The notes under the pieces: generated by a model
Seen by the model: only the letters and a program-made list of their open reading frames with translations
What the model was told of the DNA's origin: nothing
Databases searched by the model: none
Program-made: the position numbers and the translations under genes
In this document: piece after piece, positions 4,194 through 59,300 of the stretch
How positions within the stretch are numbered: position 1 is the first letter of the stretch
Layout of the letters: each line of letters opens with the position of its first letter
Assembly (NCBI RefSeq): GCF_000003815.2
Contig: NC_049990.1
Span: forward strand, 2,807,655-2,871,654
Direction of reading: 5' to 3'
Source: Branchiostoma floridae
Lineage: Eukaryota > Chordata > Leptocardii > Amphioxiformes > Branchiostomatidae
Length of the DNA stretch: 64,000 nt

Positions 4194-6930
4194 ATGGCAT
4201 CTATCCTACTAGTAACACTGCTGCTTGGTATCTATCCCGTCCTGAGTGGGGCCTCGTTACCAGAGTCTTGCTCCTTCAATGTTTCCGTGCCTGAAAATGC
4301 GGCACCCGGGACAGAGGTTGTGGACGCGTCGTGTTTGTCGTCGCTACAGAAAGCGAAACTTCCTTGTGTGAAAACGGAGGGAGATCCGTACGGCAGGTTC
4401 CTTCTGACTAAGGAGTGCGCCCTTGTTGTTGCCAACCCTTTGGACTGGTCAGTACGGTCGGAATACACTATCAAGATTCGCGTTGGGGATCGTCGTGAAG
4501 TCAGGAGTGTGTCGATACAGGTTACCGACGTCCCGGGCTATCCTCCCGTGTATAACGAGACGTGTGAGACTCCGATCAACCCCACCGGTAAGGACACGAG
4601 AGAATATCTGTTTAAATTGGCCATAAGCGCCGAAGCTGAAACAGGTACCGGAGATGTGGTAGAACTAAGATACGAAAAAGGCAAGTCTAATAATCGGAAA
4701 AAGCAGAGTCTTATACATGTGTTGCCTGTTGGATTCAGAAATCAGTAATTGTCAGTTAAAGACAATGTTGGCTGTGCGTACTGATAGTGATATCGTCTTG
4801 GCGGAGCAGTTGTGGTCCTGGCAAGCCCATAATGGGACCTGTCGAGGAGATTCCAATAATTCCAAACTTTCCATTCAACTGCTTCCTTCTGTGGATCCCA
4901 ATATACAAAGGTATCGTCTGAAACAGGATTTTCCTAGCCATATCAATAGCCCGAAGTTTATCGGTATGTTGACCTTTTCATTCCCTTCAGAGAGCAACAT
5001 ACGTTACAAATGTAAAGTTCCCAAATTAGGAGGACCAGTGAGAGCAGACAGACCCCAAAACCCAACGCAACTTGTACATGTACAGTCGGCAGATGTAGAA
5101 CTCATTCCGCAAGGCTGTCCTGTTGGGAAATACGGCTTTCTCTGCGATCAAGACTGTATCTGTAAGAACGGCGCCCGCTGTCACGGGTTTAATGGGGCGT
5201 GTAAATGTCAACACGGCTGGCAAGGTGTAGCCTGTGACATTCCTAAACCTGACATCGCCGCAACAACGACATCTAGCGATTCGCGAGCCATCTACATTTC
5301 CGCCAACGTGACAATTCAATGCCGCGTGTATAACATAGATGTCGACACCTTGTCGCTGCGGTTTCCAAACGCATCTGTGATCACAAGGGAAGGTGTTAAG
5401 CGATTAGACATCGTTTTTAACGCAGAGTTACACGATAACGGCCCCTACACGTGTCAGGCCATAGACAAAGAAGGAAAGGTCTTGTCCGCAACAATTGTGT
5501 TAAACGTTAACTGCCCTCCAAATAGAAAAGGCAAACTTTGTGATGAAGCGTGTGATTGCGTACAAGGCACGGGTTGTGACCGTTGGACTGGTTGTGTCTG
5601 TCCGCCTGGATTTTCTGCCAGAAAGACCTGTGACTGCAATGGGGGGAGCTGCAGCCATACCGACGGCAAGTGTGCCTGCACGGCTGGCTGGTACGGGTCG
5701 GACTGCAGAGGACCCTGTCCCAAAGGCAGGTACGGTTGGCGGTGCCGACGGGTTTGCAGCTGTAAGAACAACGCCACCTGTCACCACGTGGACGGCAACT
5801 GCACCTGTGCGCCACCGTGGGGAGGGAGGGACTGTGACGAGCTTCGCGTCACTCAGGCTGCGTCGCTACTCGAAATCCTTGTTCCCCTGAGCTCAATAAT
5901 CCTAGTTGTTATCGTAGTGCTAGTCGTGCTCTATAAGACTGGCTGTTCCGGGAAAAAAGACGACCAGGAAGCCGAAGTTCTCCGTGAGCTCAGGCGTGTG
6001 GAGGAGGATCTAGCGCAGAGCCTACAACCGGGCTGGCTCAGGCGCTGGGAAAAGAAGATCCGCCATCTTACTCCTGGGGATCTGATTGGACAAGGAAAGT
6101 TTGGGGATGTCATACAAGCCCAGCTTCGCACACCGAAAGGTAAAATCGTCGTGGCCGCCAAGACAGTCCGTCAAGAAGACGCACAGTCCTACCGAGACTT
6201 TTACCGAGAAGCCGCCATACTAGTTGTAGTACACGAAGAGAAAAACCACGACGTTCACAAGTCAAACATCGTCCAACTGCTTGGGATAATCACCGCTAAT
6301 GAGAAGTATCTTCTTCTAGAATATTGCCAGAAAGGAGATCTTCTGTGGGTCCTTCATCAGTTTAGATGCGGCGAGGAGGACGGTCAGACTGCTCCAGATC
6401 TTCTTCGCCGTCTTCTCCGATACGCAGTGCACGTGGCACGAGCGCTAGGAGAACTGGAACGTCTGCGCATCGTTCACCGCGACGTGGCCGCTCGGAACGT
6501 CTTGATCACGGTGGACGATATGGCCAAGTTGGCCGACTTCGGGCTGGCACGAGACGTGTACACCGCCGATAACTACGTCTCCACGAGCCACAAACTTCTT
6601 CCGCTGAAGTGGATGACCTTGGAGTCCATCGAGACCGGTGAGTACACCTGTCAGAGTGACGTCTGGTCCTTCGGCGTGCTGCTATGGGAGATCGCGACAC
6701 TGGGGAAAGATCCGTGCTACGGCGACAAGATTCACCCGAATGTTCCCGAGCTAGCAGCAATCCTAGCACAGGGGATCCGCCTGCCGAGACCACCGGGGTG
6801 TCCGGAGGGTCTGTACGGGCTGATGCGCGCCTGTTGGCGAAGAAACCCCGCCGAGAGACCCGGTCCCGATGCGTTAGAAAAGTGGCTGGTAGCGCCTTAT
6901 GAGATCGTGGAAATAGAGACGGCGTTGTAG
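4194..6930 (+). pseudogene. Chimeric receptor tyrosine kinase, copy 2 (frameshifted)
   Basis: Tandem paralogue of the gene at 558, offset by about 3.6 kb; homology starts upstream near 4044 (GTACGCACTAGTGTGAACAA in both). The ATG at 4194 opens the same signal peptide and cadherin-like region. Near 4715 the sequence carries a net +7 bases relative to copy 1, so this frame stops at 4748 while the rest (EGF, Ig, EGF, TM, kinase) stays open in another frame to 6930. The kinase motifs GQGKFG, VVAAK, HRDVAARN and DFG are all present. Other differences: about 17 residues are missing from the EGF cluster (FSARKTCDC joins directly) and the activation loop is about 4 residues shorter (SHKLLPLKWM). Either a young pseudogene, a polymorphic allele or an assembly error. 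The well-kept downstream frame means decay, if real, is recent. Confidence 0.75.
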
Positions 6931-12577: not shown

Positions 12578-15500
12578 ATGGGTCCCTTCATCCTGTTCTT
12601 CATCGCCATGGTGGCCGCCTCTCCAGTCAAAAGGTGAATACTTCTTCACACAGTAATATGTTTTAAGACGTCGTTTTGGTGCAACGGTTAGTTTGAGTTT
12701 GGCCCAGATCACAGAGGTACTGGGTTCGAATCCACTGACATGCCACCGATAATATACCCTTTGAAAACGTATGCTGTACATGACTTTGCTCACTCAACCC
12801 AGTAGTATAATAATTATTCTTACTACAGCATATTTCAAAAATCAACATTTTGGGTCGCGGTTACAGGGACTTAGCTAATGACGGGAATAACTCGACAACA
12901 AAAAGAGCTATCCGAAAACGGATTCAACTCCCCACCAACAGGCCTTTCCAATAATACAATAGTTTGCCTATTTCGGACACTTTTCAAAAATCTACATTTT
13001 GGGTCGCGGTTACAGGGACTTAGCTAATAACGGGAATAACTCGACAACAAAAAGAGCTATCCGAAAACGGATTCAACTCCCCACCAACGGGCCTTTCCAA
13101 TGATACAATAGTTTGCCTATTTCGGACACTTTTCAAAAATCTACATTTTGGGTCGCGGTTACAGGGACTCTACATTGCACTGCAGCCATAGGTGTGTCCC
13201 AAACGTCAAGTGATTCCACATGAATGCATGGATAGTTAATGTGATGTTTTACAATGCAATGCCTTGCCTTGACGAAGTTGGTGACTATGACTTTGTCGTG
13301 TATAACGAACGATTGGAGAATCGGATGAGATTCACTTTGAAAAACTTGTCCCATGTTACAAACAGGCAGGAAAATGTGTTCGGATTGCTGGACCTTGACG
13401 GAGACGGCCGACTGTCAGGGAACGAGGTTCTGTCCAGCATTATTTTTGACCAAGCCATCCAGGCTCTGGACGCCGACGGTATTCAATCTGAATTTTATCT
13501 ATTAGTAAATACAAAGCTAATCTCTCTCTCTCTCTGTCTTTCTCTTTCTCACTCCCTTATCCTACAATTAGAAAAAATGGAAAAGAATTGATGTATTTTT
13601 GGTATTTGATGTATTTATGTGAATCCAATGGTGTCCTCCTCGCTCTGTTGCACGGCGTGTGTGCATGTGCGTGTGTGTGTGTGTGTGCGTGTGTGTGTGT
13701 GTGTGTGCGTGTGTGTGTGTGTGTGTGTGCGTGTGTGTTTTCCCGTTTAGAACAGTTCGCCTTGTCTTGCCTTGTTTTCCAATGATCAGAGCTCGAATGA
13801 GCACAAGTGCAACGTGATCCTGTTTTATAGGCCAGATGGAGAGTGTTCCATGTGGCTTAACCAACCACAGATCAACTAATATCGGTTTAATGCAAATCTT
13901 CTGTGGTGTCCTATACGACAGTCAATCTTTGGGGTCTAGCCTAGGAGGGAAATGTCATTCAACACTCTGGGTACGCGACTTCCTTTACGCCTGTCTGTGT
14001 TACCATGCTGGGGTTATCTAGGTCACTACACTTACCCATCCTCCTACGCAGGGAAATCCGACGGCGAAACCGCCTGTCTGAATGTACCCAGCTTCTCAAC
14101 CGTCACCCTTAAGTTAGTTCATGTGGGCGTCGCCACTAACCAGCTGCCAGCCAATCTCAGAATAGGCTTTTCAGTTTTCAAAAGGGATCTCGCATATATA
14201 AGATTAAGCTCATTGATATCTATAAGCAGGCCGGTCAGGAACTAAGGGTGACGGTTGAGAAAGCAGGGTACATCCAGACAGGCGGTTTCGCCATTGGATG
14301 TCCCTGCGCAGGAGGATGCACTTACCATGACTTGTGATTTCCAATTTTTGTTTTCGCGTCCATGCAGGCGACGGTTTTATCACCGGGATCCAGATTTTCG
14401 AGCTGACCGGCGACCCCAACGTCTTCCCGCAGCTTGACGTCAACGGTGACGGCAAGGTCAGCTATGACGAGATCCGCCAGGGCACCAACATGCTGCTTAT
14501 CTTCAACAGGTTCGACGCAGACGGTGAGTCCTGAGATATCGCTTACCGGTCCTTGACCGGGGGTGGTCGTGGGGGCACTTAGCAGCTGAGAACACCTCCC
14601 TCCATCTCACCCTGTCGTGGGCCAGAGCTTGGGTTTCGGCAAGGGTCATTCCCGTCCACTCTTTGCTGTTATCATCCCACTTCTTTCTCTGTCTGCCTCG
14701 TCTTCTTTTCCCTTTGACTGTTCCTTGCAGGATGACCTTAGAGAGGCCTTTGCTTCTTGTCACGTTAGTTTCCTTTTTATGACAACACTAAGATGTCCTG
14801 AGATGTCAACGGTCAAATATTTGGCTCACTAAAAAAAAACACCAAAAAAAAATCCGAAAACAGCTTCATCAGGTCGGTAGGACGTAGGATATTGGAGATT
14901 TCTTTCACGCAGCCAGGCTGTTTCATACCTGCCGAAACGTCAGTAGGTTATAAGAAACAGCCTGGTTTTATATAAAGAAAATCTGAAATATACTAAAAAC
15001 AAAGCAGTTACAGTAGAAGACAGTTAACTGCATAACGGATTACCACACACTTCTGTTAATTGCACGGAATACCAAAATCTCAAACCAGGGCGGTCCAGCT
15101 CGATAACTTCGCATTATTGTACCGTGCGGAAAATTGCACGAAATTCTTTGGCAAATGGGGTGTGCAATTAAGCGGCCTATACTGTACTGCATTATTCTTC
15201 CAACAGTGACGTTTTTTGAAGGCATAGATACACACCAAATTTTTTATGCTTTGCAGCACATGTCTTGTTCGCGGGGTGATCTAGTCTCGCGAGAGCACAA
15301 AACTCGCGAGACCACAAAACTAGGTCCTAGACTTGCGTAGATAATCTGCCCCCTCACCCCCGCCTCCTTGCTGAGTGAGTAGGGGTAGGTGGGACTTGGG
15401 CCACAAACCTTTCAGTGACACCTGTCCTGCTGTACAATGTGAATCAGTCAAAATTGCCCTGAAAAAGGCGACAAGCTTTTACCGAAACGTTGGTGAGAAT

Positions 15501-22239: not shown

Positions 22240-25200
22240 ATGGGACCCTTCATCCTGTTCTTCATCGCCATGGTGGCCGCCTCTCCAGTCAAAAGGTGAG
22301 TACTTCTTTAAACAGTAAACATGGTACAATGGTTAGTGTTTTAGTACTGACATGCCACCGAAAATATGCCCTTTGAAAAAATTATGCTGTACATGGCTTT
22401 CCTCTCTCCACCCAGGTGTGTAGTTCCAATTGAATCTCATGGCACTAGTACTGCAGGTAAAGGTACTAATGTTCACAAACGCGGTCCCAAAAATTTAGTG
22501 TTTCCACATAAATGCATCGATAGTTAATGTGGTATGTACAATGTGGTACCCAACATATTACATTTTTTAATTTTAATTTTAATTTTAATTTTAATTTTAA
22601 TTTTAATTTTAATTTTAATTTTAATTTTAATTTTAATTTTAATTTTAATTTTAATTTTAATTTTAATTTTAATTTTAATTTTAATTTTAATTTTAATTTT
22701 AATTTTAATTTTAATTTTAATTTTAATTTTAATCATCCCATGTAGCTGTTGTGTAAAAAGAACGATTCTCATATTGAATAAACTTATGAGATTACTTCGA
22801 AAAACTTGCCATATGTTACAAACAGGCAAGAAGATCTGTTCGGACTGTTGGACCTAGACGGGGACGGCCGACTGTCCAGGAACGAGGTTCTGTCCAGCAT
22901 TATTATCGACCAGGCCCTCCTTGCTCTGGACAGCGACGGTATTCAAGCTATCTGAATTTTGTTTACATACAAAGCTAATCTCTGTCTCTGTCTCTCTCTC
23001 TCATTCCTCAATCCTACAGTTTTTGAAAAATGGAAAAGAATCTATGTATTTTTGGTCTATTATGTGATTTTCTCCGTGCCCTCCTCGCTTTGTAGCACGG
23101 TTTGTGTGTGTTTGTGTTTGTGCGTGTGCGTGCGTTCCCGATTAGAACACCGACTAGTTTTGCCTTGTGTTGTGTGACTTTTCCAAGGATCAGAGCTCGA
23201 ATGAGCATAAGCACAACGTGATCTGACTTTTATAGGCCAGATGGAGAGTGTTCCAGATTGCTTAACCAATCACAGTTACGGAAATATCGAATTAATGCAA
23301 ATCTTACCATGAATTGTGATTTGAATTTTTTTCTCGCGTCCCTGCATGCAGGCGACGGTTTCATCACCGGCATCCAGATTTTCGAGCTGACCGGCAACCC
23401 GAACGACTTCCCGATGTTTGACGCCAACAATGACGGCAAGGTCAGCTACGACGAGATTCGTCAGGGCACCAACATGCTGCGCGTCTTCGACAGATTCGAC
23501 GCAGACGGTGAGTCCTATGATGTCAACGGTAACGTTTGGCTCACAAAAAGACATGGACACTGAAAGCTAGCTATTTTTATTTTGATACAGATAATATCAA
23601 GATTGGACCTGAATTGGGGCGGGGGGGGGGGGGGTCACTATTCAGCTACAGGTTAATACATGGCTCCTAAATGCATTATGGACATGGGTACTTATTACCT
23701 CCATGAAATGTCATGGAATAGAGGTTATATTTTCTGTTATGTGTCTCTGTCTGTGTAGATGATTACTCAAGAACGGCTGGATGGATTGGTTTCATACTTG
23801 TTGTGTTGGTGGGGTGTGATGAAAGCTCGAATCGATGAGATTTTGGGAGCCGTATCTGTCGTTATAATGTATGTAATAATATCAGAAATCACCCCTATAT
23901 TTGAGATATATTGGTACAGGCATCGTGCTTTATGTGTTTGTTAATGGGCTTAGCTCCAAGCAGATGGTGAAGTGACAGCTGTTTGGGGAACCCCGAGTTT
24001 TTTTAATATGATAATTAGTTTTATTTATGTCTGCTTAGGATATCATGGAGATGTGAAGCGTAAGTATGATTGTAAGAAGTTGAGGTACATTTAACGATAA
24101 TGCTTAACAGGTATGGATGTCTCACATACTGTACTGCTGATTTGAGTGACATGGTGATTAAAATGCCATTAGGTCCTCTCATCTGGGTTGGGTGTCAGAA
24201 GTTTTATGGGCGATACAGATGTTCTGATTTTGTTACGATAAGGGACAGTTGTTAGTTGTCTCTTTCGTAGCCAATGGTACTTGTTTTTTAGCAGACGGGG
24301 TTGGCGCCAAGTAATCATCTTACAGTTGGTGTAGGGCTGTCAGAGGAAAGTGTGCATCTCGTTTTTGTACCGTGTGAACAGCTGACGCTATGACATATTG
24401 GTGGAAAATCAAATCACCATCTGACTAAAGTTGGCCACATTCCTTCTTCTTTCTGAGTTTCCCAACTTCCTCCCACCACACAGCTCTGAGGCACATAGTC
24501 GAACCTCAATAATGCTGACAACCTTAGACATTTTAAATGCCAAACATCAAGCTTAAGGAACACCACGCTACCGTCGACCTCTTAAACGCACATTACACAA
24601 TTAAGTGTCACATTTTGATAATTACTAATCAGATGGACATCCTCTGTGTCATTAAATAAATACACCACTACTTTCCCATAACATTTATATTATATAACCA
24701 TTACTCTCAAATACAACCGACTATAAACATACATACCATCCACAAAAAAGCAATAAATATTTCATGGAGGTATGAGGTCCCCGAACTCTAGTTTGTTCTA
24801 TAATCTATCAACTTATTTCATTTGATAATTTTGTTTAGGTTTTGATCATGTACAGTATAAACCAAATTCATATTATCCAGTTTCTTGGGGAGGCCCACGA
24901 GAAGCCACATATGTTCCTGACTTCGGCTGGGGAGGTAAAAGGCGGTGGATAGGGATTGGCTCCACATTCCAATTCTGGGCCATAGACACAGTGGATAACA
25001 GCCCACTGCCCCTAGTATACGGCCAGCCGGAAAAGGCTATGGGACTTCAGTGAATAGTTTCATCAGGCTGGTACGTCACTGAATAAAGAAATTCTTTTTA
25101 CACAATCATTGCTTTATTCTCACCAACGTTTCGGCGACACCTGTCCTGCGGTACGATGTGAACCAGTCAGAATTGTCCTGAAGAAGGCGACGGACGGTCG

Positions 25201-41000: not shown

Positions 41001-42418
41001 AATTATAGATAGACCCTGTATATCAAACGTAACATTATCTGTTCCTATATCTACACTTGTACAAAGAAGCCAGAAGATGTCGACCATAATGTTAGCCTAG
41101 TACCTTCAATTAGTTAAATGTATCTTGTCTCTGCATATGTCTGTTATGTCTGTTATCAGTGACCTGTACCTAGCCCGTCGAGGCATGAATGTACAATAAA
41201 GGTCTTTCATTCATTCATTCATTCATTCATTCATTCATTCATTCATTCATTCATTCATTCATTCATTATTAAAGTTCAGATAGTTAGAAATGTTGGAATA
41301 CCGTCGTGATCCAGCGCAAGGATGGCCTGCTCGAGAGTTATGATGGACAGAATCTCCTGCTTGGACAGCCGGCCGTCTCGGTCAAGGTCAAGCTGTCCGA
41401 ACAGATCCTCCTGCCTGTATGGAACATGGGAAAAGTTTTTTTCTCCGTAAAAAACTTCAACGGGTTGTCAATTATTTATATAGTAAGGTTCTTTAGGCAC
41501 AACCAGGGAGTACTTAACACGATGGATAAAAGAGGCAATCTGGATCAGGAATCAGCTCCAGTCATGAACAGAGATGAGGGGGATACAAACTGAGCCACGT
41601 TTTGGGACGGCATTCTCGCTGCTTCAGCGCCACCTACATCGGTTATAAGTAGCATCGAGAATCGTATCCAGCCATTATAACCCTGATGATGGTGTCTGAC
41701 AGACACCGAAACGTTGGAAGTAAGTACTAGTACTCCTTGGTTGTGCCTAAAGGACCTTATTTTATTTTATTTTGCTTTTGGACAGACGAGAACAATGTGG
41801 CACCCGACAGCACTCACGTTAGCATCTTATACTAACAGTCTTGACAGAGGTTAACTTATACAACAATACTGACAGAGGTTAAGGTAGTATTTTCTTTTAC
41901 CTCCATGGCCGAAGTCAGGTACCCATTTTTACACCTGGGTAAAGTGAGAACGGCTGTGTAAAGTGCCTCTCCCAAGAGCACAACGTTGGGGGCACGGTTG
42001 GTTTCGAACTTGGGACCCATAGATAACGACCCGACCGCCCTACCAGTTTCGCCACACACGACGCCAATTAAAGTTAAGATTTTCTTTATAGGTTCATAGA
42101 GTTGGAGATTAAAAGGAGGAGCTAAGTTCTAATGTTTTGGTTAAACAATAAATGTTATTTATACACAGCACAGACAACGTTTGGGAACTGTATAAGTTTG
42201 GAATTACGTTTGGAATTACGTGTGGGATAGCACTGTAAACACCAAAATGACTGTCCACGTATATACATGTACATAAATGATTACGCAAGCAGTGACACTT
42301 ATAGATGTAACCAAGGACTCAGGGGGCAAGAGCAAAACAAAACAATACTGTTCAGTATTCACCTTTTGACTGGAGAGGCGGCCACCATGGCGACGAAGAA
42401 CAGAATGAAGGGTCCCAT
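35072..42418 (-). CDS. Secreted twelve-EF-hand protein, gene C
   Basis: Inverted third paralogue, 362 residues. Coding exons in transcript order: 42418-42363, 41414-41302, 40385-40230, 39268-39153, 38627-38558, 38175-38023, 37701-37513, 35817-35665, 35154-35072. Exon 2 begins at 42442; the first non-coding exon is about 43030-42997, and the last is at 34330. Signal peptide MGPFILFFVAMVAASPVKR, then Gln. Exon sizes equal those of A and B except exon 8, which is three bases longer (NDALDG instead of NDADG), and a shorter tail ending AFNMGT. The extra residue moves the first Ca2+ ligand of loop 10, so that loop should bind poorly or not at all. Role as gene A: secreted Ca2+ binding, inferred. 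Convergent with gene B and more diverged than A is from B. Confidence 0.88.
36530..37060. repeat. Foldback and tandem repeat block in gene C intron
   Basis: Repeated segments with GCTACTTAAACTTTCTTTCG and its inverse, plus two copies of CTGGGCGTGA(T/C)AGACCAG (36676, 36812). No coding content. Confidence 0.55.
37204..37466. mobile_element. Foldback MITE, sister of 14039-14325
   Basis: CGGCGAAACCGACTGTCTGG at the left and GACAGGCTGTTTCGTTG at the right, 47 bases beyond the end of exon 8 of gene C. Confidence 0.6.
37795..37960. repeat. Fragment of the composite TIR element
   Basis: GGTGATACGGAATACACCGT and TTGTATTCTATATTTGAC match the right part of 28927-29356. Confidence 0.6.
38640..38725 (+). 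repeat. tRNA-derived SINE head
   Basis: CGTGGTTAGGATGGTTGACT and GGGGTTCTAATCCCTATCAG give an A box and B box 3'-linked to CCCAATGTTGTGCC, the SINE body. It begins 13 bases from exon 6 of gene C and is not a functional tRNA. Confidence 0.6.
39300..39812. mobile_element. Diverged copy of the TTAA-flanked element
   Basis: Shares GGTGGATATA, CCAACT, GTTGCTAT(C/T)GGCAAC and AAAAAAGCCCGG, and the right end next to TTAA, with 27571-28520. The left end is not recognisable. Confidence 0.6.
39978..40029 (-). pseudogene. Duplicated fragment of gene C exon 4
   Basis: About 50 bases repeat the 3' end of exon 4 (ACCATCAGCGTCCTC, GAAGATGCGCACCATGT) just beyond the MITE at 40033. The fragment lacks an acceptor and most of the exon. 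Confidence 0.65.
40033..40207. mobile_element. Foldback MITE with 9-bp TSD, third copy
   Basis: TAATCTCCAAGCAGATCC at the left and GTCTGCTTGGAGACTA at the right; flanks GACGAAGAA and GATTAAGAA are similar 9-mers. It lies 22 bases from exon 4 of gene C. Confidence 0.75.
40460..40660. repeat. TIR repeat with CGCGAA motifs
   Basis: Ends in TGTAAATATTCATGCAGAAAT and AAATGCATCTACAGTA, with repeated CCGCGAA. Family members: 46691-46795, 47880-48095 and 52740-52945. Confidence 0.6.
40975..41268 (+). mobile_element. LINE 3' end with (ATTC)n tail
   Basis: Ends GTACAATAAAGGTC then TTTCATTCATTC repeats to 41268. The inverted partner in gene B is at 27175-27360. Tetranucleotide tails are common in CR1-type LINEs; clade not proven. 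Confidence 0.6.
41484..41760 (+). mobile_element. Penelope-like element remnant with hammerhead motif
   Basis: Inverted ends GGTTCTTTAGGCACAACC and GGTTGTGCCTAAAGGACC enclose a trace resembling the C-terminal end of Penelope-type polymerase/endonuclease (NRDEG) and a hammerhead-like motif at 41683-41715. Short, broken fragment; old. Confidence 0.5.
41683..41715 (+). ncRNA. Hammerhead-ribozyme-like motif
   Basis: CTGATGA, hairpin GGTGTCTG/CAGACACC, then GAAACGTT. Core matches the hammerhead consensus CUGANGA-stem II-GAAA, with a minimal stem III (AC/GU) as described for Penelope-like elements. Cleavage not shown. Confidence 0.6.
41880..42065 (-). repeat. tRNA-derived SINE (inverted)
   Basis: On the minus strand GTGGCGAAACTGGTAGGGCG and AAGTTCGAAACC form the tRNA-like head, followed by CCCCCAACGTTGTGCTCTTG. 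Same family as 7530. Confidence 0.75.
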
Positions 42419-45906: not shown

Positions 45907-46006
45907 NNNNNNNNNNNNNNNNNNNNNNNNNNNNNNNNNNNNNNNNNNNNNNNNNNNNNNNNNNNNNNNNNNNNNNNNNNNNNNNNNNNNNNNNNNNNNN
46001 NNNNNN
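45907..46006. other. Assembly gap, 100 N
   Basis: It may hide the final coding exon of the aldo-keto reductase gene, for which no terminal exon is visible below 46469. Confidence 0.99.
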
Positions 46007-46468
46007 CGGAGAGCTTACGATTAAGGCTTCTTAATTGTTTGACGGCTGTGAATAGCTGTACTGAGAAGTCAAAAGGCATTTTTACACAACTTACTAGTAT
46101 CACAATCCAGCAAACTCATTAAATGGATTTTCTTTTTCTCGTGTAGTGCCATTGAAAATACAACAAAGAGTACCGATGTTACAAATCTGGCAAGATCCTG
46201 TCTTCTGATTAGAAATTTGCTTTTACATTCAACAGTTTGTCTTTCATTGCACCCATTAAAGGTATTAATTGTCTATTTAATGAGTTTGAAGATCAACAAG
46301 CAAACTTCACACTGCTATTTAGGGCTGCACATCTTTGGCAGGCCTTTTTAACGTTGCCATTTTATTGTAACTTGTAGAATTATGTGACCTGATGTTAGCA
46401 AATGCATGACAGTACTGTAACATAACCTAACCAGCTCAACCTTACACAGCGTAACTCACAGCTATTAC

Positions 46469-49400
46469 CTGTACTCATCCCCACAATCCCCTATAACAGT
46501 CATAAGGTCTCTGCCCCTGCTGACCACTGTGTGAATCCTGTCCATGTCCTGCTGCGTGAGGTCAAGGGTGAAAGTTTGAAGGTTGTCCTGGATGTGTTCT
46601 GCCCCCGGCACTCCCAGTCTGCATCCTACAATCACACCTACATGGAAGGATATAAATGATGATGAGTTTACCTTTTAGTTTTACTCGAGGTACTGTAAAT
46701 GCATTTAAGTTCGTGGGGATTTAGTTTCGGGGTAGTGGGAAAATGGAGTGGTTGCGCCATCCTCTGAACTTTGAATAATAATGCATTTACAGTACTGCAC
46801 TGTACTGTAGTGACATACATGTACTGTAGTGGAAAAGCCAGTGCCTATATGTATACAAACCACCAGTCAGAAACCACTTCCTGGTTACTCGACAAGAGTG
46901 CTACGAACCGACTTTGTAAGGACTCAGTGCTGACGTGATCAATTGTCACTGCTCTAAATGTATCTACCCCAAAAATACGTGGCATAATACTTTTCTTCCA
47001 TGGTGTTATACTTGCCGTATGGAGAAGGTATTAGGAATGAATGCTAAAGACTAAAAAAACTGTGTCTCGTATTCTTGTGTCATTATTTTATACTGTGTCA
47101 ATATTTAGTATGTACACCTAGAAACATCATTGTGAAATAAACTTTGCCTGTTTGACTGACTGTATGTGTGTGTAATGGTGCCCTTACCTCCAACTGCTGG
47201 TTGGTCCAAGATGTACTTCGTGGCCACATTGGCAACACTGACTCCGTGTTCATCTGCTATGGTCTTTAGCACCTGAAATAGGTGGAAATAATGGAAACAA
47301 CTCAGTCACGTTTGGGATTGTGATTTGGCCACAGCAGCTGCATACATGGGCTACATATAGCAGTGTCAGAAGCATAACTCCAGTTAGAAGCTCTGAGGAA
47401 ACTGTCTGACAAATATCAAAACATCAGCAGGTAAGAGGCATTCTAGTTGTGCAAAAGAAATCTTCAACATCCTACATGTATGTTCTACCAACCTGATGAA
47501 ATTATCTTCGGAATGGAAACAATTGATTTGGTTACATGGATAAAAGTTAGACATCCCAGGTAATAAGATGCATCAAATAGTAATTACTCAAGCGTCTAGA
47601 TATGATTTTGGAAACGGTCAGACGTTTCAGATAACATTTGTTATCTTTCGTCAGTAACACCGTGCCAAGATGTTACCTGATTAACCTGAAACATCTGACC
47701 GTTTCCAAAATCATATCCAGTTTCTTGAGAAATTGCTATTTGGTGAAATTGATGTGGTTTTATCTAGATATCCATTTGTAATGCAATAGTCTTTTTTTTT
47801 TCTCTTTGGTGCTACAGTACATTATACATTAAGCTGCTTACCTTATGGCAGCGTGCATAGTTAAGCAGACATACAAAAATGTAAATTCTAAACATGCATT
47901 TAATTTGCGGGGATTTAACTTGTTAGGTAGTGTGAAAATTATCAGTGCTTGCAGTGATTTAGAGTTTGGGTTAGCGCCATGGAAAAATGTATGTACATAT
48001 AGTTGATTTGAGTTTGCGAATAAGTGGCCACCACAAAAACCGCAAAGTTCAACATGAATTGATGAAACAAGTGTCAACATTTCTGCATTTACATTACTCA
48101 CAAACACACACACACACCCTGGCCTACAGACATGCACATGAACATGCATGCACACACAAACCATGTACAATATTGAGATAAGACCTCACCTTGAGCAACT
48201 CTTGAAGGAGGTTCCACCCCCCCCAGGCATCCACCATGTTCTTGTACTTCCCCAAGGACGCGGTGGGAAGGTCGCGCCTAGACGTTGGTTCCTTTGCTCC
48301 AAGAAATTTCTCAGTAAGCAGACCACCACCTGTAAAACAAATAGGGTAGGGGGCACTCAGTTTTCTTAGTCTTCACACTTTTTGGTTTGGAATCACACTA
48401 GGAATTTCAAAACTTTGAGTCAATTTAAATTGCTACTAGATGTGCAGTCTGCAAAAACAATTATGTCACGGCAGAGGTTGTGAGACTGTCAGAATTTTTT
48501 TGTACCAATTCTCCCTGTCTAGATCACAACCAGAGTCTATGTCAACAGAGATCAGGCTGCTAGCAATGTGTTTGGGTGGTCTATCATTTTGCAATCCTGA
48601 GTTTCAAGATCTTGACATGAATTGAAGTTCAATTGTTTTGTCTTTTAAGAAAAAATCCACACACAAAGAAAATTTCACAGACTCGTGCATCATGTGCTCT
48701 ACAATATTTCTTTGGATTCTCTATTTTCTATTCTGAGGAAAGGATTAAGAAAAATGAATGAAAGGTAGAAGGTACCCAAAGTTCCATATGTGAGCAGCTT
48801 TATTCCATGTGCTGTGCAGAACTCTGCCATCTTCTGTCCTGGTCGCCTGTCGATGAGGGAATACTGTACCTAGGGGAGTAAAACAAAAAGAACAAGAGTA
48901 ACTGTTATCTAATAGGCTAGATAACTTTATATGCTTTGTTGTACTGACATATTCTTACCAACATTCAGCAAATGAGCAAGATTGGAGAAAATGGAGGCAA
49001 ACCTAACTCTAACCACATTCCCTCCTGGTGGTTTCATGTTGTTCTTACAGTTTGGCAATTTTTTAAAAATCTGACATCAAATTAGCTTGGCCCTACTGAC
49101 AATTATTGCCCACTACTGTGGATGCAGTTTGCCACAAAGGTCACTAGTCTAAAATAAGGCTTGGATGATTGAGCCAAAATTTAGTAAGAATAATGAGTTA
49201 CAATAACAGTCCTAGTGCAAGAACTAAATGTGGAGTCATTGATACTAACATTCAGGATTGAAATTAGATATGCAAGTTACAAAACAGTTATTCAAGCATG
49301 AATGGGTAGATTTTGGAAACAGACGTTTCATCCACTACCTTTCATGGGTGGCTCAGAAAGTACATTATACAAATTATGCCAGCAACAGACTCTTCTCTGG

Positions 49401-52400
49401 AGTCTGTTGCAATACTCTACCTGATTAGAAGAGATAGGTATGCCTTTGTTCACGATTTCCTCCAGTCGAACTGTGTCAAAATTGGTCAAGGCTAGCTCAC
49501 CTATCAACAGAAGGAAAAAATATTATGCTTGTATGAAAATTAAGATTATTAACAACAAAACAAATCTGACACAATAAGAGTAAGGACTAATGCCTGACAT
49601 GATAACAGAAGTAGGGGTTATGAAGGCTGTTCAGAGACAGTCCAGAATGGTTCTTATCCACTCACGCTGGTAAGGACCTCTTTCCCTTTTGACAAGTGTG
49701 GTGGGCTCTTTAACAAGCTTGAGGTGTGGCTCGCCCCAAACACAGAACACCCATTTAAAAACTATCTGAGGGGCAGCCCTAACCAAAGCTAGGTACTCAT
49801 CTTCATCTGAGTGAAGTGAGGAAAGTCGTGTTAAGTGCCTTTCCCAAGGGCACAATATCGATGGCACATCAACGGATTCGAACCCAGAACCTCAGGGTTA
49901 TGAATCGAACATCCTGCCAATTGCGCCACACAAATCAAGAGGTCAATTTTGTTTAGGAGGAGGGCATAGCGGTACTGTTAAAAGTTTTCCCCTTCTACTG
50001 CACCTGTTTTTATACATTAATTTCTGTATTTCATATGTATTTTGTTGTTGTGTAGATTAACAAACAAGCAAACAAATCAAATGATGTAAAACTGACCAAT
50101 CTTGCCCTCCGCCTGTAGGTCAGCCATGTGGCCAAGGGCATCCAGGTACCGCTTGTCACTATAGTCCCACCAGTGGAACTGTAAACTGTCCAACCTGTCC
50201 ACCCCCATTCTCCTAATGGACCGGTCAATGTTTTCTTCAACCACCTGCAAAAAGTAATTCATTGCTCTCATTAATGACAATGACAATGAAGTTTATTGCA
50301 TATTCATGCCCCATTGGGGCTAAAAGCAGTCAATTAATACCATTTATGTCACAGTAAAGGGCTTCAAATTTGTTTGAAGTCTAGTTGCACAGAAAATATG
50401 CTGGATATACATTGTACTGTACTACAACATACCAAGATAAGATAGAATGTCTCTGCTCAGACTGTCAGAACTTGAATCTGAAATTCTCCAGTTAAATTTT
50501 TTATGTATAGACAGGCAATACGACAAGGGTTTTATTATCTTTTCTCTAAGACTAATATTAAAGTATAGCAGTGTATAATTAGATATGCACATAACTCGAC
50601 ACAAATACACTGGTACTGGTGCACCCCAACAAGAAAAAAAATTATATGCATAGCTTGAATTTTGGGCACACAGAAGTGCATATGCACCTTGAACACTACA
50701 CTTTGAAATTTAACTTGTTGCAGAATGAAGTTCAAATTCATGTCTATTGACACAATACAGCCACTTACCTTCCTGGTCATGGGCCCAGGCCGAGGCACCC
50801 ACTTGGTCAGACCCTGCACTTTGCCGAGAGCTTCCGCACCCCTCTCAGCTTTCAGCTAGAACAGTTAAAAACATAATAAAATGGTCACTACATGTATATT
50901 TATGATTTAGCTTTCTTAGCACTGGCTATAGCTAAATATTAACATTTACTTTGGGACTCCACTGGATCCCATAACCTTCTTAGATGTCCATTGCATTGCG
51001 ATGATGACTTCAATTGTACTGCAAGTGTGATCGCATGCCAATTACACATGTGAAAACAGATGTGCCAATGCAGCATAAGTAGGAATCTTGTGGTATATAC
51101 CTTCAGAATCAAATATTTAGGAGTTTGAGACAAAACAAATTGAGAAGGCCTCTATAACAATGTTTTTTTTTTTACTGAGTTGATGTTACATATTAGACTT
51201 TTTATTGGCTTATAATGACATTTTCTTTATTTCAATGAAGTTCTACTGTGATGAGTATCTCGCCAGACAATGAATGAAGGAACCGTAGCCGAAAGAACTG
51301 CAATAGAACAAGGTAAGCCATCTGAAACAGCATATCACAATCCAGTGAAAAGCCTTTTTAATTCTAAGAGTCAGCAACTTGTTTTGGTGTGGCGATCAAT
51401 TTCTTGCCAGACAATGACTCAAGCAACCGTAGCAAGAAGAACTGCAACAGAACATGATATGAAAGCCATCAGAAATAGCATGATATCATAATCCAGTAAA
51501 AAGCCTTTTTTTCAATAAAAAAATCAGCAACTTGTTTTGGTGTGGCGGTCTAATAGCAGTGACGACCCACTGGACAGAGCCGCATGGAAGCACAGTGTGA
51601 AGACTAGCTGACTGCTGCCTACCCTTGTGTCAGGGATCCCAGCAGCAGCATAATCTAACCATGGATTGTAAGTGAGTGAGTGTGGCCGTACCTTTTTGAG
51701 AAAAGTACCGTAGAAATCTTCGGCAGGTCCATAGTGGTCTGCCATGTCAAATGTTGTTAAACCGGCATCTACGTAACTCAGCATCTCAGTTACTACAGAG
51801 GATAGTAAGAAATAAATAGAAAAAGGACAACATTTAATCTCAGAACAGAAAACTGACCATGATTCTTGGTGGCACAAGCTACAAGCAATTTGCTTCTGTG
51901 ATGAAACTGAATTTCAGCGTGGCATTGAAAATGGCCAAACTCAAAAGAGATGGCCAAATATAAAAGGTTTGTCAGAACTGAAATAGAGGCAACGTTGTAA
52001 TCTCCAAGGAGGTCTACCGGTGGCATAAGGAGTTTAGCTGGCCAAGAAGTGTTCTGAGCCCCAGTGGTACCAGCCGGTAGATCTGCCTGGAGATTGTAGT
52101 AACGTTGCCCATTGTTTATCGTTGGTTGAAGAAGTTTTCAAAACAGATGCTTGATTTGTATGTCTGGTATCATTTTTTCCCCACCCGCTTCTTGGCAGCG
52201 TCCCTTTCAAATAAAAAAAGGAAAATCAGTTTGCCAAACATACTTGAGTACATTTGTTTGAAAATCAGGTGGACATCATTCGTCTAATTGTAGTTACAAA
52301 AGTGTTTGGCCATCAAGAAATTGTTCAGTTTCTGCCCCGTTTGTTTTGTTTTGTACCTTTTTGACGAAAGCTCCGTATATGTCCTCAGAAGGGCCATAAA

Positions 52401-53319
52401 TGTCGGCCAGGTCAAAACTTGTCAGGCCGGAGTCGTAGTATTGTACCATGGCATCAGCTGGGGAGGGGGGCATCAGTTCAGTTCAGTTCATCCTCATATG
52501 AGGTGCCATTAATGATGTCCGACCATGCATCTCTATCTAGCATGGCAGCTAGCAAGTTGTAGTCCTTTAAACCGACCTCCTCCTCCAAGACTTTCTTAAG
52601 GGGGGTATATCATAATGTAATGTGTCACACATTCAGGATCTCCCCACAAGTTTGTTTCCCTCCATTCCCAAAAATGTGCAGTCTAACTAAGATGAGCCCA
52701 CTGGATAGTGCCGCATGGAAGTGCGTGGTGTGAAGAAGTAAAAGCATTTAAATTCGCGGGGATCTAATTTTACGGTAGCGGGAAAAGAGACTTTTCGTGG
52801 TGGATTTAAGTTCGCGGTAACACCATAGACTGGAGTCTAATACCATAATAGAAAAATGTTCACAGTGGTTTTAAGTTTGCGGTGAAGTGGTCACAACGAA
52901 AACCGCGAACATAAATCCAACACGAACATTTCTGCATTTACAGTATCTGACTGCTGTCTACCCCTGTGTCTGGGATTTCAGCAGCAGTATTAAAATTCAA
53001 GTAGCTTTAAGTAACAGGTGCAATGCAGCTTTGATACTGCTTGCTATTTTCTATTAGTGTTGGATTCTTTTACATACAGAGGCTCATATATATCTTAAGT
53101 GTTGGTTAGGTTAGGTTAAGTTTAATTGCTTATGGTGTTATTTACCAACATAGACACATTTTCATGCTTTGCTTATTTGTATGTTTGTTTGTTTGTTTAT
53201 ATCTTACCTGCCCTGTGTGGGTCGATTGGTCCATGTGCCCCTGACACCTGCCACATGCCGTTCAGGACCCGAGTGATCTCCAGTCCCCCCCTCAGACGCA
53301 CCTTGGGCACTCCCGCCAT
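46469..53319 (-). CDS. Aldo-keto reductase with mutually exclusive exon 2, 3' end incomplete
   Basis: Nine constitutive or alternative coding exons in transcript order: 53319-53208, 52457-52357 (2a) or 51792-51692 (2b), 50855-50769, 50244-50097, 49500-49421, 48869-48776, 48329-48190, 47272-47188, 46637-46469. All junctions are GT-AG and phases match. About 338 residues, beginning [12 protein letters not shown]; the last visible codons read GDCGDEYR, with one short exon still missing (possibly in the gap at 45907). Aldo/keto reductase TIM barrel: catalytic tetrad Asp53 and Tyr58 (FDLADIYG), Lys89 (LTKW) and His124 (QFHWWD) are all present at family spacing. It should reduce carbonyls with NAD(P)H in the cytosol; no signal peptide is seen and the substrate is unknown. 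Both exon 2 versions keep Asp53 and Tyr58. Confidence 0.88.
46691..46795. repeat. TIR repeat, TACTGTAAATGCA ends
   Basis: Short copy with both ends (TACTGTAAATGCATTTAAGT and AATGCATTTACAGTA); family of 40460 and 52740. Confidence 0.7.
47621..47654 (-). ncRNA. Hammerhead-ribozyme-like motif with GUC
   Basis: On the minus strand CTGACGA (47654-47648), hairpin AGATAACA/TGTTATCT, then GAAACGTC. GUC is the classical cleavage triplet, and the four bases on either side can pair as stem I (GTTA with TGAC, one G-U). It lies in an intron of the aldo-keto reductase inside a foldback repeat, 47597-47720. Confidence 0.55.
47880..48095. repeat. TIR repeat with CGCAAA motifs, degraded
   Basis: ATGCATTTAATTTGCGGGGA at the left and CAACATTTCTGCATTTACA at the right; family of 52740. 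Confidence 0.6.
49655..49935 (-). repeat. tRNA-derived SINE, nearly complete
   Basis: Minus strand: TGTGTGGCGCAATTGGCAGG (A box) and GGGTTCGAATCC (B box), body with GTGCCCTTGGGAAAGGCACT, and tail TGTCAAAAGGGAAAGAGG. Best-preserved copy in the window; in an intron of the aldo-keto reductase. Confidence 0.85.
51255..51545. repeat. Tandem duplication of about 140 bp
   Basis: TCGCCAGACAATGAATGAAG and TTGCCAGACAATGACTCAAG begin the two units; both end with CAGCAACTTGTTTTGGTGTG. Intron of the aldo-keto reductase. Confidence 0.8.
51692..51792 (-). CDS. Alternative exon 2b of the aldo-keto reductase
   Basis: 101 bases, flanked by CTCTGTAG and GTACGG, phase 1 in and phase 0 out, as exon 2a. Encodes a segment with [15 protein letters not shown]; 20 of 34 residues equal those of exon 2a by eye, including catalytic Asp and Tyr. 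Confidence 0.85.
51998..52098. mobile_element. Foldback MITE with 9-bp TSD, fourth copy
   Basis: TAATCTCCAAGGAGGTC at the left, GATCTGCCTGGAGATTGTA at the right, flanked by GCAACGTTG and GTAACGTTG. It lies between exons 2a and 2b. Confidence 0.7.
52357..52457 (-). CDS. Alternative exon 2a of the aldo-keto reductase
   Basis: 101 bases with flanks CTCCCCAG and GTACAA. Encodes [15 protein letters not shown] with catalytic Asp53 and Tyr58. It lies 565 bases upstream of exon 2b in transcript sense. Confidence 0.85.
52740..52945. repeat. TIR repeat with CGCGAA motifs
   Basis: Ends AAAAGCATTTAAATTCGCGG and TTTCTGCATTTACAGTA. It is inserted within a sequence (52691-52990) that also occurs uninterrupted at 51560-51655, so the site before insertion is visible. 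Confidence 0.7.
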
Positions 53320-56330: not shown

Positions 56331-59300
56331 TTCCCGGCCGCGGCATTCTGAACCTCGTTGTACATAAAGTAGACCCTGTCCGCCTCAGCTCCGTACAGAA
56401 AACCGTCATCTGATAATGGAAGAAAACAAGAATGCTTTTAAAAAGATGCCATGGCGATGGGGATTACCCAGTATCCCTCCAGACATAGGAGGCGCGGTAG
56501 AAACAAACGTCTTAAGGATATGAAAAATTGTTGATGAATTCTGCATTGTTGAAATAAGTTTGTATTTCGTTGGAACACACTGTATAATGTTACACATGGG
56601 CCATAGACTCATGAAAGCGTGACGTCACCAGTTTACCTGCAGTTTTGGACTTATTCCCCAAAGTATGCCGGGCAAAATGGTTGGANNNNNNNNNNNNNNN
56701 NNNNNNNNNNNNNNNNNNNNNNNNNNNNNNNNNNNNNNNNNNNNNNNNNNNNNNNNNNNNNNNNNNNNNNNNNNNNNNNNNNNNNATCTGGTCACCTACA
56801 GAAAAAAACAACAGCTGTGTATCACTCAACGATCATGACCATAGCATGTCCAGAACACGAAATATCTAAAGAGGAATATCTGCTGTGCGCTGTGGTACCA
56901 GAAAGACCTGACAGGGGCCCAAATTCCAATCATGTCGTGGGGAACACCAGCACCTACCAAAAATCAACAATCCATCCAGACATTTTCGAGTTTTCGTGTT
57001 CACACACGGACACACAGGCACGTTATCCTGGAAACATAACCTTCTTGGCGAAGGTAGATAGAGTTTTGAAAAGGGAATTCGAATGTTTCCACTCATGAAT
57101 GTGACTGTGAAGAACCCATGGAATTGGATCCAGATAGCCAAGCAGCGGGGTTGCCTAACCGCTCGGCCACAGAAACCTATCAGTTATCACTCGGTACGTA
57201 CCGTCGGTGTCCAAAGCGTAGGCGACTACCGCCAGGTTGAGTCCGGCCTCACACTCGCTGAGTGTGAGATGCGCGTCATTATTAGTGTCCAGCCCGTCGG
57301 CCTGCCTCCTCTGGCGCCGCGCGGCGGGGACTGCAGCTGTCCCGTACGCTGCATCGTACATGGCGATGATGCGGTCAGCCTCTGCACCGTACAGGAATCC
57401 GTCATCTGAGGATGGAAAAACAAAAAAGTGAAAACAAGAATGTTTTGAAAAATTATCTCGGCGACGTGTATGTGCCCCAATACAATCAGACGTGCAAAGA
57501 AGCTCTCAAAATGATTTCTATAACTTGACTTTGCAGATAGGACGTCCCTAAACCCACACGAAGTACTAGCAATAGTAAGACAAGAGGAAGACAAGCATGG
57601 AAGTAGCTCTTTATCTTCATGTCTACCTTGCCCCACCCCCACCTCTAATGACCTGGTCAAGGGACTAAGGAGGCCTGGGGTATTATCAGCCTTACTCTAT
57701 AACTTACATGTAGGACTGAACCGAATACTCGGACAAAATATTTCGACAAAGTCGGATCGCGTAGGCACAGTTTAGGTCATGGTCACATGTGTCGTGCGAT
57801 CGTCGTGCGATTTTGATGCCATAGGATTTTCAAGCAGGCTGTGACAGAACCAACCAACCGACAAGGATCCAAAACAGCCTACCAAGACAGTTTGCAGGAC
57901 AAACGCATGGCTGTCCTCCAAAATGCACGATGTTAGCGATCGTACGACGATCATACGACCTATAGATGTGACCGCGCCCTAACACCAAAACGTACCGTTG
58001 CGATCATAGAAGGCAAACAGGTCAGCCAGGGTCAGGCCGTCCTGGATTTCTTGGAAGCTTATCACGTGGTCATGGTTGGTGTCGAGGACGTTGAAGTAGT
58101 GATGGTCAATGAACTGCAGGGCCTGGTCAACGGTGAACTGCTGATCACCTACAGGGAGAAAAAGAGTTTTTGAAAAGAACGTTCACACTGACGTAATCAT
58201 TGCGCAAGTATTGCCAACCAAGCTGGCTGGTTAAAGCTCGAGACTGGCTTTTACTTCTGCATGTTTTTGGGTGGATTTTTCCTTCAAATGATAACAAAAC
58301 ATCAAAGTAAAACCACAAAAGTCCACACGCGATTTTGTGGCTTAGAGCTTACACATTCACAGACCAAAACACACAAGGGGCATGTGACGTCACACGGCAT
58401 GAAGATGCCACGTCACATGGCAGACAAATGCGACGTCACATAGCGGGCGGATGTTACGTCCCAAGGCGGACAGATTTTACATCACGGCGGACGGATGTGA
58501 CGCCGCCTGGCAGGCGGATGTGACGTGACATGGTTGAAGAATGTGACGCCATATATGGCAGGCGGATGTGACGTGACATGGTTGAAGAATGTGACGCCAC
58601 ATATGGCGGGCGGATGTGACGTCACATGGTTGAAGAATGTGACGTTCGTAATAAAGCTTTTGCTGTTAACAGAACCAAATTAAGAATCAGTTCACACTGC
58701 TTGGAAATTGAAAAAGGTCGGTACCGTAATGTACCAGCCAACCAGAGGCAATGTCCTTCATGTGAAGATGGTATTGAAGATGAGAATCATTTTCTAATGA
58801 CATGCCCTGCATATAGCGTAGATAGACAAAAATTAATGGATATGATCACAAGTAAATCTAGCACACCTTTACCAAAGACGAACACATGTACTTTCAATCT
58901 ACTTATGTCATGTCCAGACTACATATTTTCGTATTTAGGCCAATACATTTGCAATGCTCTAAAAAGCGAGAATCTATTGTACAGTAACAGACCGACTTGT
59001 TTAACTTGTATATTACACTATGTCAATGTGCCATTTATGTTCACATTCCTGTACTATACATGTATGTAGTTATAGATCTTAGACGAGTCATTGTATTGAT
59101 TGACTTATCACCATTGCCTTACAATTGTATCATGTACAAATGTCGTGCAATAAAGTTCATTCATTCATATGGCGGGCGTATGTGACGTCACATGGCAGAC
59201 GGATGTAACGTCACAGTCTACACGCATGAAAATGTCAACTTGAAATGTAGGATTGGTACGTACCGTCGGTATCCAAAGCCACCAGGACCTCTCCCAGGTC

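Follow-up and report, generated by a model that had tools for sequence, protein, structure and literature searches.

Exon 2 of an aldo-keto reductase gene in the lancelet Branchiostoma floridae is present in two versions, designated 2a and 2b. We consider it likely that this is one reductase gene with a tandemly duplicated exon 2 whose copies are used alternatively, 2b being the ancestral version and 2a having diverged under selection. The gene lies in a stretch of 64,000 nucleotides (nt) referred to as the window, which corresponds to C12:2807655–2871654 (NC_049990.1) of the 513 Mb genome.

A complete coding sequence was assembled from the minus strand of the window. It has nine exon positions with GT-AG introns throughout, comprises 1020 nt and encodes a protein of 339 residues with either exon 2. 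An in-frame TGA is located two codons 5' of the ATG of exon 1. Judged from its sequence, the gene encodes a real member of the aldo-keto reductase family, and the match to PF00248 reached 222.6 bits for the 2a isoform and 220 bits for the 2b isoform against a cut-off of 24. The protein ends in IGDCGDEYR, of which IGDCGDEY is invariant in 31/31 aligned prokaryotic relatives, and the gene model is supported from end to end because this C-terminus is nearly equal to that of the relative from a cyanobacterium (L009). When the window was searched by tblastn with the two isoforms and the cyanobacterial protein, exon 2 was recovered twice and every other exon once; weak chance matches were set aside. 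The catalytic tetrad consists of D53 and Y58 (exon 2), K89 (exon 3), and H124 (exon 4), and these columns are likewise invariant in all 31 aligned relatives. We take these four residues, placed by motif, to have the usual roles of the tetrad.

An earlier sequence-only reading of this DNA had described 2a and 2b as exons of 101 bases running from phase 1 to phase 0, and this is base-exact in the minus-strand gene model, in which each exon has an AG acceptor and a GT donor. The two versions share 64/101 bases and 20/34 residues, with base matches of 21/33, 27/34, and 16/34 at codon positions 1, 2, and 3, respectively. Asp53 and Tyr58 are present in both, as that reading had stated, and the motifs it quoted, ADIYGPSED (2a) and ADHYGPAED (2b), are correct. 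Specifically, 2a has Ile57 and Ser61 where 2b has His57 and Ala61, and these changes adjoin the catalytic Tyr58, in agreement with the proposed location of the differing residues around the active site.

The reading frame places a strict limit on the products. When 2a is joined to 2b, a TAA formed by the first three bases of 2b follows directly after Lys71, and when exon 1 is joined to exon 3 the sequence reads GCT GAA AGC TGA, with a stop after three codons. Because double inclusion leads to TAA and double skipping to TGA, single inclusion alone encodes the enzyme. The earlier claim that only one of the exons can be used is thus correct for the protein but not necessarily for the RNA. The frame logic acts on the product and not on the splicing choice; splicing of 2a to 2b is not prevented by it, and the resulting product is simply non-coding. 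A frame broken by joint inclusion is given as one route to exclusivity for human exons in a published catalogue (PMC5740500).

To place the two versions, prokaryotic genomes were scanned with the 2b isoform as the query, and the best 80 of 279 relatives were kept (L009–L088). They are 57–65% identical to the query in the best segment, spanning nearly the whole protein. In all 80 relatives the exon 2 segment is nearer to 2b (mean 20.6/34 residues) than to 2a (16.4/34), and His57 is found in 79/80 and Ala61 in 80/80 of them; for these reasons 2b looks ancestral and 2a derived. Of the 137 near-invariant positions, defined by 76 or more of the 80 relatives being alike, 14 are altered in the 2a isoform and 10 in the 2b isoform. 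Within exon 2 (20 near-invariant positions), 2a departed at six and 2b at two. The residue preceding the Tyr was also compared with distant solved enzymes, five of which have alignments covering the site: it is Val in DepB, MtmW, 3n2t, and 7utf, and Ala in general stress protein 69; the alignment of a sixth enzyme, radial spoke protein 5, does not include this site. Since these five enzymes have Val or Ala at this position, His57 seems to be a mark of the subfamily, and residue 57 of 2a is aliphatic like that of the wider aldo-keto reductase superfamily. In search of a hint at the substrate, open frames around 16 of the 80 prokaryotic loci were inspected by eye, a survey that included no family search, and no neighbor recurred in most of them; one neighbor is common to L012 and L037, and another, short-chain-dehydrogenase-like by eye, to L035 and L058.

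Comparison of 2a with 2b gave a nonsynonymous divergence (dN) of approximately 0.32, and the synonymous divergence (dS) was saturated (3.3 by NG86 and 1.5 by LWL85; YN00 returned no value). A neutral simulation was conducted in which 2b was randomly mutated to 37 differences in 20,000 runs. A residue identity of at least 20/34 was retained in 1/20,000 of the runs, and 7689/20,000 were free of stops. Because dS is saturated and the simulation so rarely retained the observed identity, the divergence of 2a and 2b appears to be old and under amino-acid constraint, and both exons look to be under selection.

When the genome was searched with the 2a isoform, a query that may have missed further 2b-like copies, 14 matches were obtained: ten are the exons of the gene itself including 2a and 2b, three are distant aldo-keto reductases, and one is a truncated, inverted relative (L092; Table 1). 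In the latter, the initial 91 bases of exon 1 are followed by a few bases from the end of an intron and then by 2b, in frame; it also shares the sequence 5' of exon 1 and that of the intron after 2b. Exons 3–9 were not found around it, in an examined region of 37.7 kb that includes 1070 bases of N. A processed copy of a spliced exon 1–2b transcript was considered and rejected, as the intron end is retained at the junction and the end of exon 1 is missing there. L092 is better read as a genomic deletion because of these intron bases and because the sequence of the post-2b intron follows. It is uninformative on whether 2a existed at that time.

L092 differs from the gene by six synonymous and one nonsynonymous changes in exon 1 and by five synonymous and two nonsynonymous changes in 2b (dN 0.025, dS 0.28); for the two exons jointly the counts are 11 and 3 (dN 0.021, dS 0.29). 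Noncoding mismatches are 218/1441 in the alignable pieces, a count that includes one repeated stretch of 133 sites twice and excludes the 2a-to-2b piece and the pieces too diverged to align. The Poisson probability of the count in 2b is 0.00013 if both copies were neutral and 0.034 if one was, and these values suggest that constraint has acted on 2b in one copy at least, and perhaps in both during much of the period. The exon duplication appears to predate that of the gene copy, because divergence is far greater between 2a and 2b than between the two gene copies; other Branchiostoma species are therefore expected to share the exon pair.

On this basis we infer the following scheme. Exon 2 would have been duplicated in tandem, with the two copies serving as alternatives. 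The exon 2b would retain the ancestral segment and yield an enzyme like its prokaryotic relatives. The exon 2a would have diverged under selection with Asp53 and Tyr58 kept, His57 being replaced by Ile beside the catalytic Tyr and Ala61 by Ser. Transcripts with both exons or neither would be stopped at once and be subject to nonsense-mediated decay, so that a functional protein would carry exactly one version of exon 2, and the likely effect of 2a would be an altered substrate pocket.

The last step can be related to the AKR1C enzymes, for which the roles of the Asp, Tyr, Lys, and His of the tetrad are stated in PMC4310174. In the pig AKR1C1 homology model described there, Tyr55 acts as the general acid/base and the docked steroid is contacted by Leu54, among other residues; another study gives residue 54 as the active-site difference between AKR1C1 and AKR1C2 (PMC5349110). 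By the D-x-A-x-x-Y spacing (Asp50 and Tyr55 in AKR1C), which is a correspondence of motifs and not an alignment, residue 57 here would be AKR1C residue 54. As residue 57 corresponds in this way, a change of substrate is a reasonable guess, and a substrate shift between the isoforms, as suggested in the earlier reading, is plausible. That splicing swaps the active-site segment to give one enzyme with a prokaryote-like pocket and another with a new pocket, through the residue beside the Tyr, is a proposal we put forward tentatively, at slightly less than even chances.

Several points weigh against the scheme of alternatively used copies. The constraint on 2a is deduced solely from its comparison with 2b and the prokaryotes, and the comparison as a whole is based on one animal genome and prokaryotic relatives. 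Ranking by a 2b query leans toward 2b, albeit none of the search words fell within exon 2. One relative, L081 (titled Candidatus Nitrosotalea), has Ile57, so this residue is found outside 2a as well. The low divergence of the duplicate could also be due to gene conversion. Joint use of such exons can be prevented by incompatible splice sites, a short intron, a distant branch point, or paired intron sequences, none of them obligatory. Here the splice sites are ordinary GT-AG with a 2a–2b intron of 564 nt, and a mechanism of exclusivity besides the frame was not found. In particular, paired intron sequences controlling the choice, which the earlier reading had suggested looking for, did not exceed chance in an ungapped test (pairings of at least 11 bases) of the three introns that flank 2a and 2b: in a control in which one intron of each pair was permuted in two-base blocks, 24, 23, and 27 of 30 shuffles gave a pairing at least as good as the best one observed.

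A distant branch point was also considered as a basis of exclusivity and is not favored, since the AG-free stretch 5' of 2b (44 nt) is the longest among the nine introns, yet not extreme (18–33 nt in the other eight). The 2a–2b intron contains a strong predicted hairpin (Table 1). About half of it (51985–52052) matches C12:2802107–2802177 at 77.8%, and the hairpin may be a transposon remnant, perhaps a small one. Short repeats of families D5 and D12 (51566–51651 and 52697–52990; 85–92% alike) are found in the intron that follows 2b and again in intron 1, in the same order but off the register of the exon duplication.

Three other explanations of the exon pair were weighed. One of the exons may be the main one and the other a rarely used or dying relic, both being intact and one being spliced. 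We regard this as unlikely. The donors of 2a and 2b (GTACAA and GTACGG) both fit the consensus poorly, though a GTACCT donor is found at exon 6 of this gene as well. The frames are open and the GT-AG sites intact in both exons, 2b appears to be under constraint when compared with the duplicate and is the best match to the prokaryotes, and 2a keeps 14/20 near-invariant positions, the catalytic residues included, despite saturated synonymous sites; all of these speak against a relic. The pair could instead be mainly a regulatory switch, in which enzyme levels are adjusted through RNA liable to decay, arising from double inclusion or double skipping, and the difference between the two proteins matters less. 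The TAA exactly at the 2a–2b junction and the early TGA on skipping would suit such a switch, but it leaves unexplained the divergence of 2a at near-invariant positions of the family with amino-acid identity kept, and we consider it very improbable.

An assembly artifact, with two alleles placed end to end, would be conceivable because lancelets are highly heterozygous. However, alleles are not expected to differ at 37/101 bases of a coding exon. Among the 20 of 29 repeat families listed, the in-register repeat (665 bases apart) reaches only a few bases past the exons, other short repeats in the two neighboring introns are out of the 665 register, and exons 1 and 3–9 are single in the window. 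The allele artifact was rejected on the register of the listed repeats and these single exons, and we give it hardly any weight. The coordinates on which the preferred reading of alternatively used 2a and 2b is based are listed in Table 1.

Table 1 Exons of the reductase gene and associated elements (window positions unless C12 is given).
Feature	Position	Strand	Remarks
Exon 1, coding part	53208–53319	-	ATG at 53319; ends in phase 1; donor GTAAGA
Exon 2a	52357–52457	-	101 nt; ADIYGPSED; probably the derived version
2a–2b intron	51793–52356	-	564 nt; GT-AG
Predicted hairpin in 2a–2b intron	51987–52110	-	-56.5 kcal/mol for 151 nt folded; z -6.84
Exon 2b	51692–51792	-	101 nt; ADHYGPAED; ancestral-like version
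Exon 3	50769–50855	-	contains catalytic Lys89
Exon 4	50097–50244	-	contains catalytic His124
Exon 5	49421–49500	-	
Exon 6	48776–48869	-	GTACCT donor
Exon 7	48190–48329	-	
Exon 8	47188–47272	-	
Exon 9	46465–46637	-	protein C-terminus
Truncated inverted duplicate (L092)	C12:2778988–2779191	opposite strand	~82 kb away, ATG to ATG

Elsewhere in the window, runs of 100 N at 45907–46006 and 56686–56785 are apparently assembly gaps, the former lying just past the 3' end of the reductase gene. Repeats resembling EF-hands, with DLDGDG-like motifs, occur at approximately 13337–13405, 22800–22865, and 41309–41464 (tblastn matches at chance level) and perhaps represent a local gene family. Near-identical kinase-domain-like stretches at approximately 2673–2783 and 6262–6372 (NIVQLLGIITA.EKYLLLEYCQKGDLL), also with chance-level matches, may be a tandem gene duplicate.

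The exon pair is best assigned to the tandemly duplicated alternative exons, a kind already known, and its location is unusual. Alternative exons that encode homologous segments usually fine-tune a protein. Such fine tuning is mentioned in the consulted part of PMC9741552, which contains nothing on lancelets or active sites. Among the matches listed for exclusive or tandem exons in amphioxus or Branchiostoma and for splicing of aldo-keto reductases, as far as their retrieved parts go, there was no report of this exon pair. Here the swapped segment holds two catalytic residues and the prokaryotes reveal the older version, so that selection on the new exon can be asked about directly. The gene would be a clean test case for a second enzyme specificity gained by splicing, without a second gene.

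Neighboring homologous exons that agree in length and phase are also described for OGDH (exons 4a and 4b; PMC7969005) and in the human catalogue, whose tandem mutually exclusive exons likewise break the frame on joint inclusion (PMC5740500). Unlike in pairs of the OGDH type, the lancelet exon holds two of the four catalytic residues, and its alternative use is predicted from the DNA. In contrast to known exclusive exons, no long AG-free stretch of the sort that a distant branch point would entail and, by the ungapped test, no paired elements were found in the lancelet introns. The prokaryotic subfamily with ADHYGPAED (cyanobacteria, Chloroflexi, and others) has the same catalytic residues and C-terminus as the lancelet protein, but a single version of the segment, read without introns, where the lancelet gene has two. 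A more distant likeness was found in radial spoke protein 5 of Chlamydomonas (7jtk), which has WWD, GGLL, and GGW in common with the subfamily over 162 profile positions; the part encoded by exon 2 lies outside the match, whose score is far lower than those of the prokaryotic enzymes. It corresponds to exons 4–8 of the gene and hints at a shared origin. A further parallel is that of AKR1C1 and AKR1C2, whose active sites are described as differing at residue 54 (PMC5349110), which adjoins catalytic Tyr55. These are separate genes of another aldo-keto reductase family, whereas the lancelet change would come about via splicing. If the proposal is true, the exon pair would represent enzyme neofunctionalization encoded by splicing, parallel to that by gene duplication in AKR1C1 and AKR1C2.

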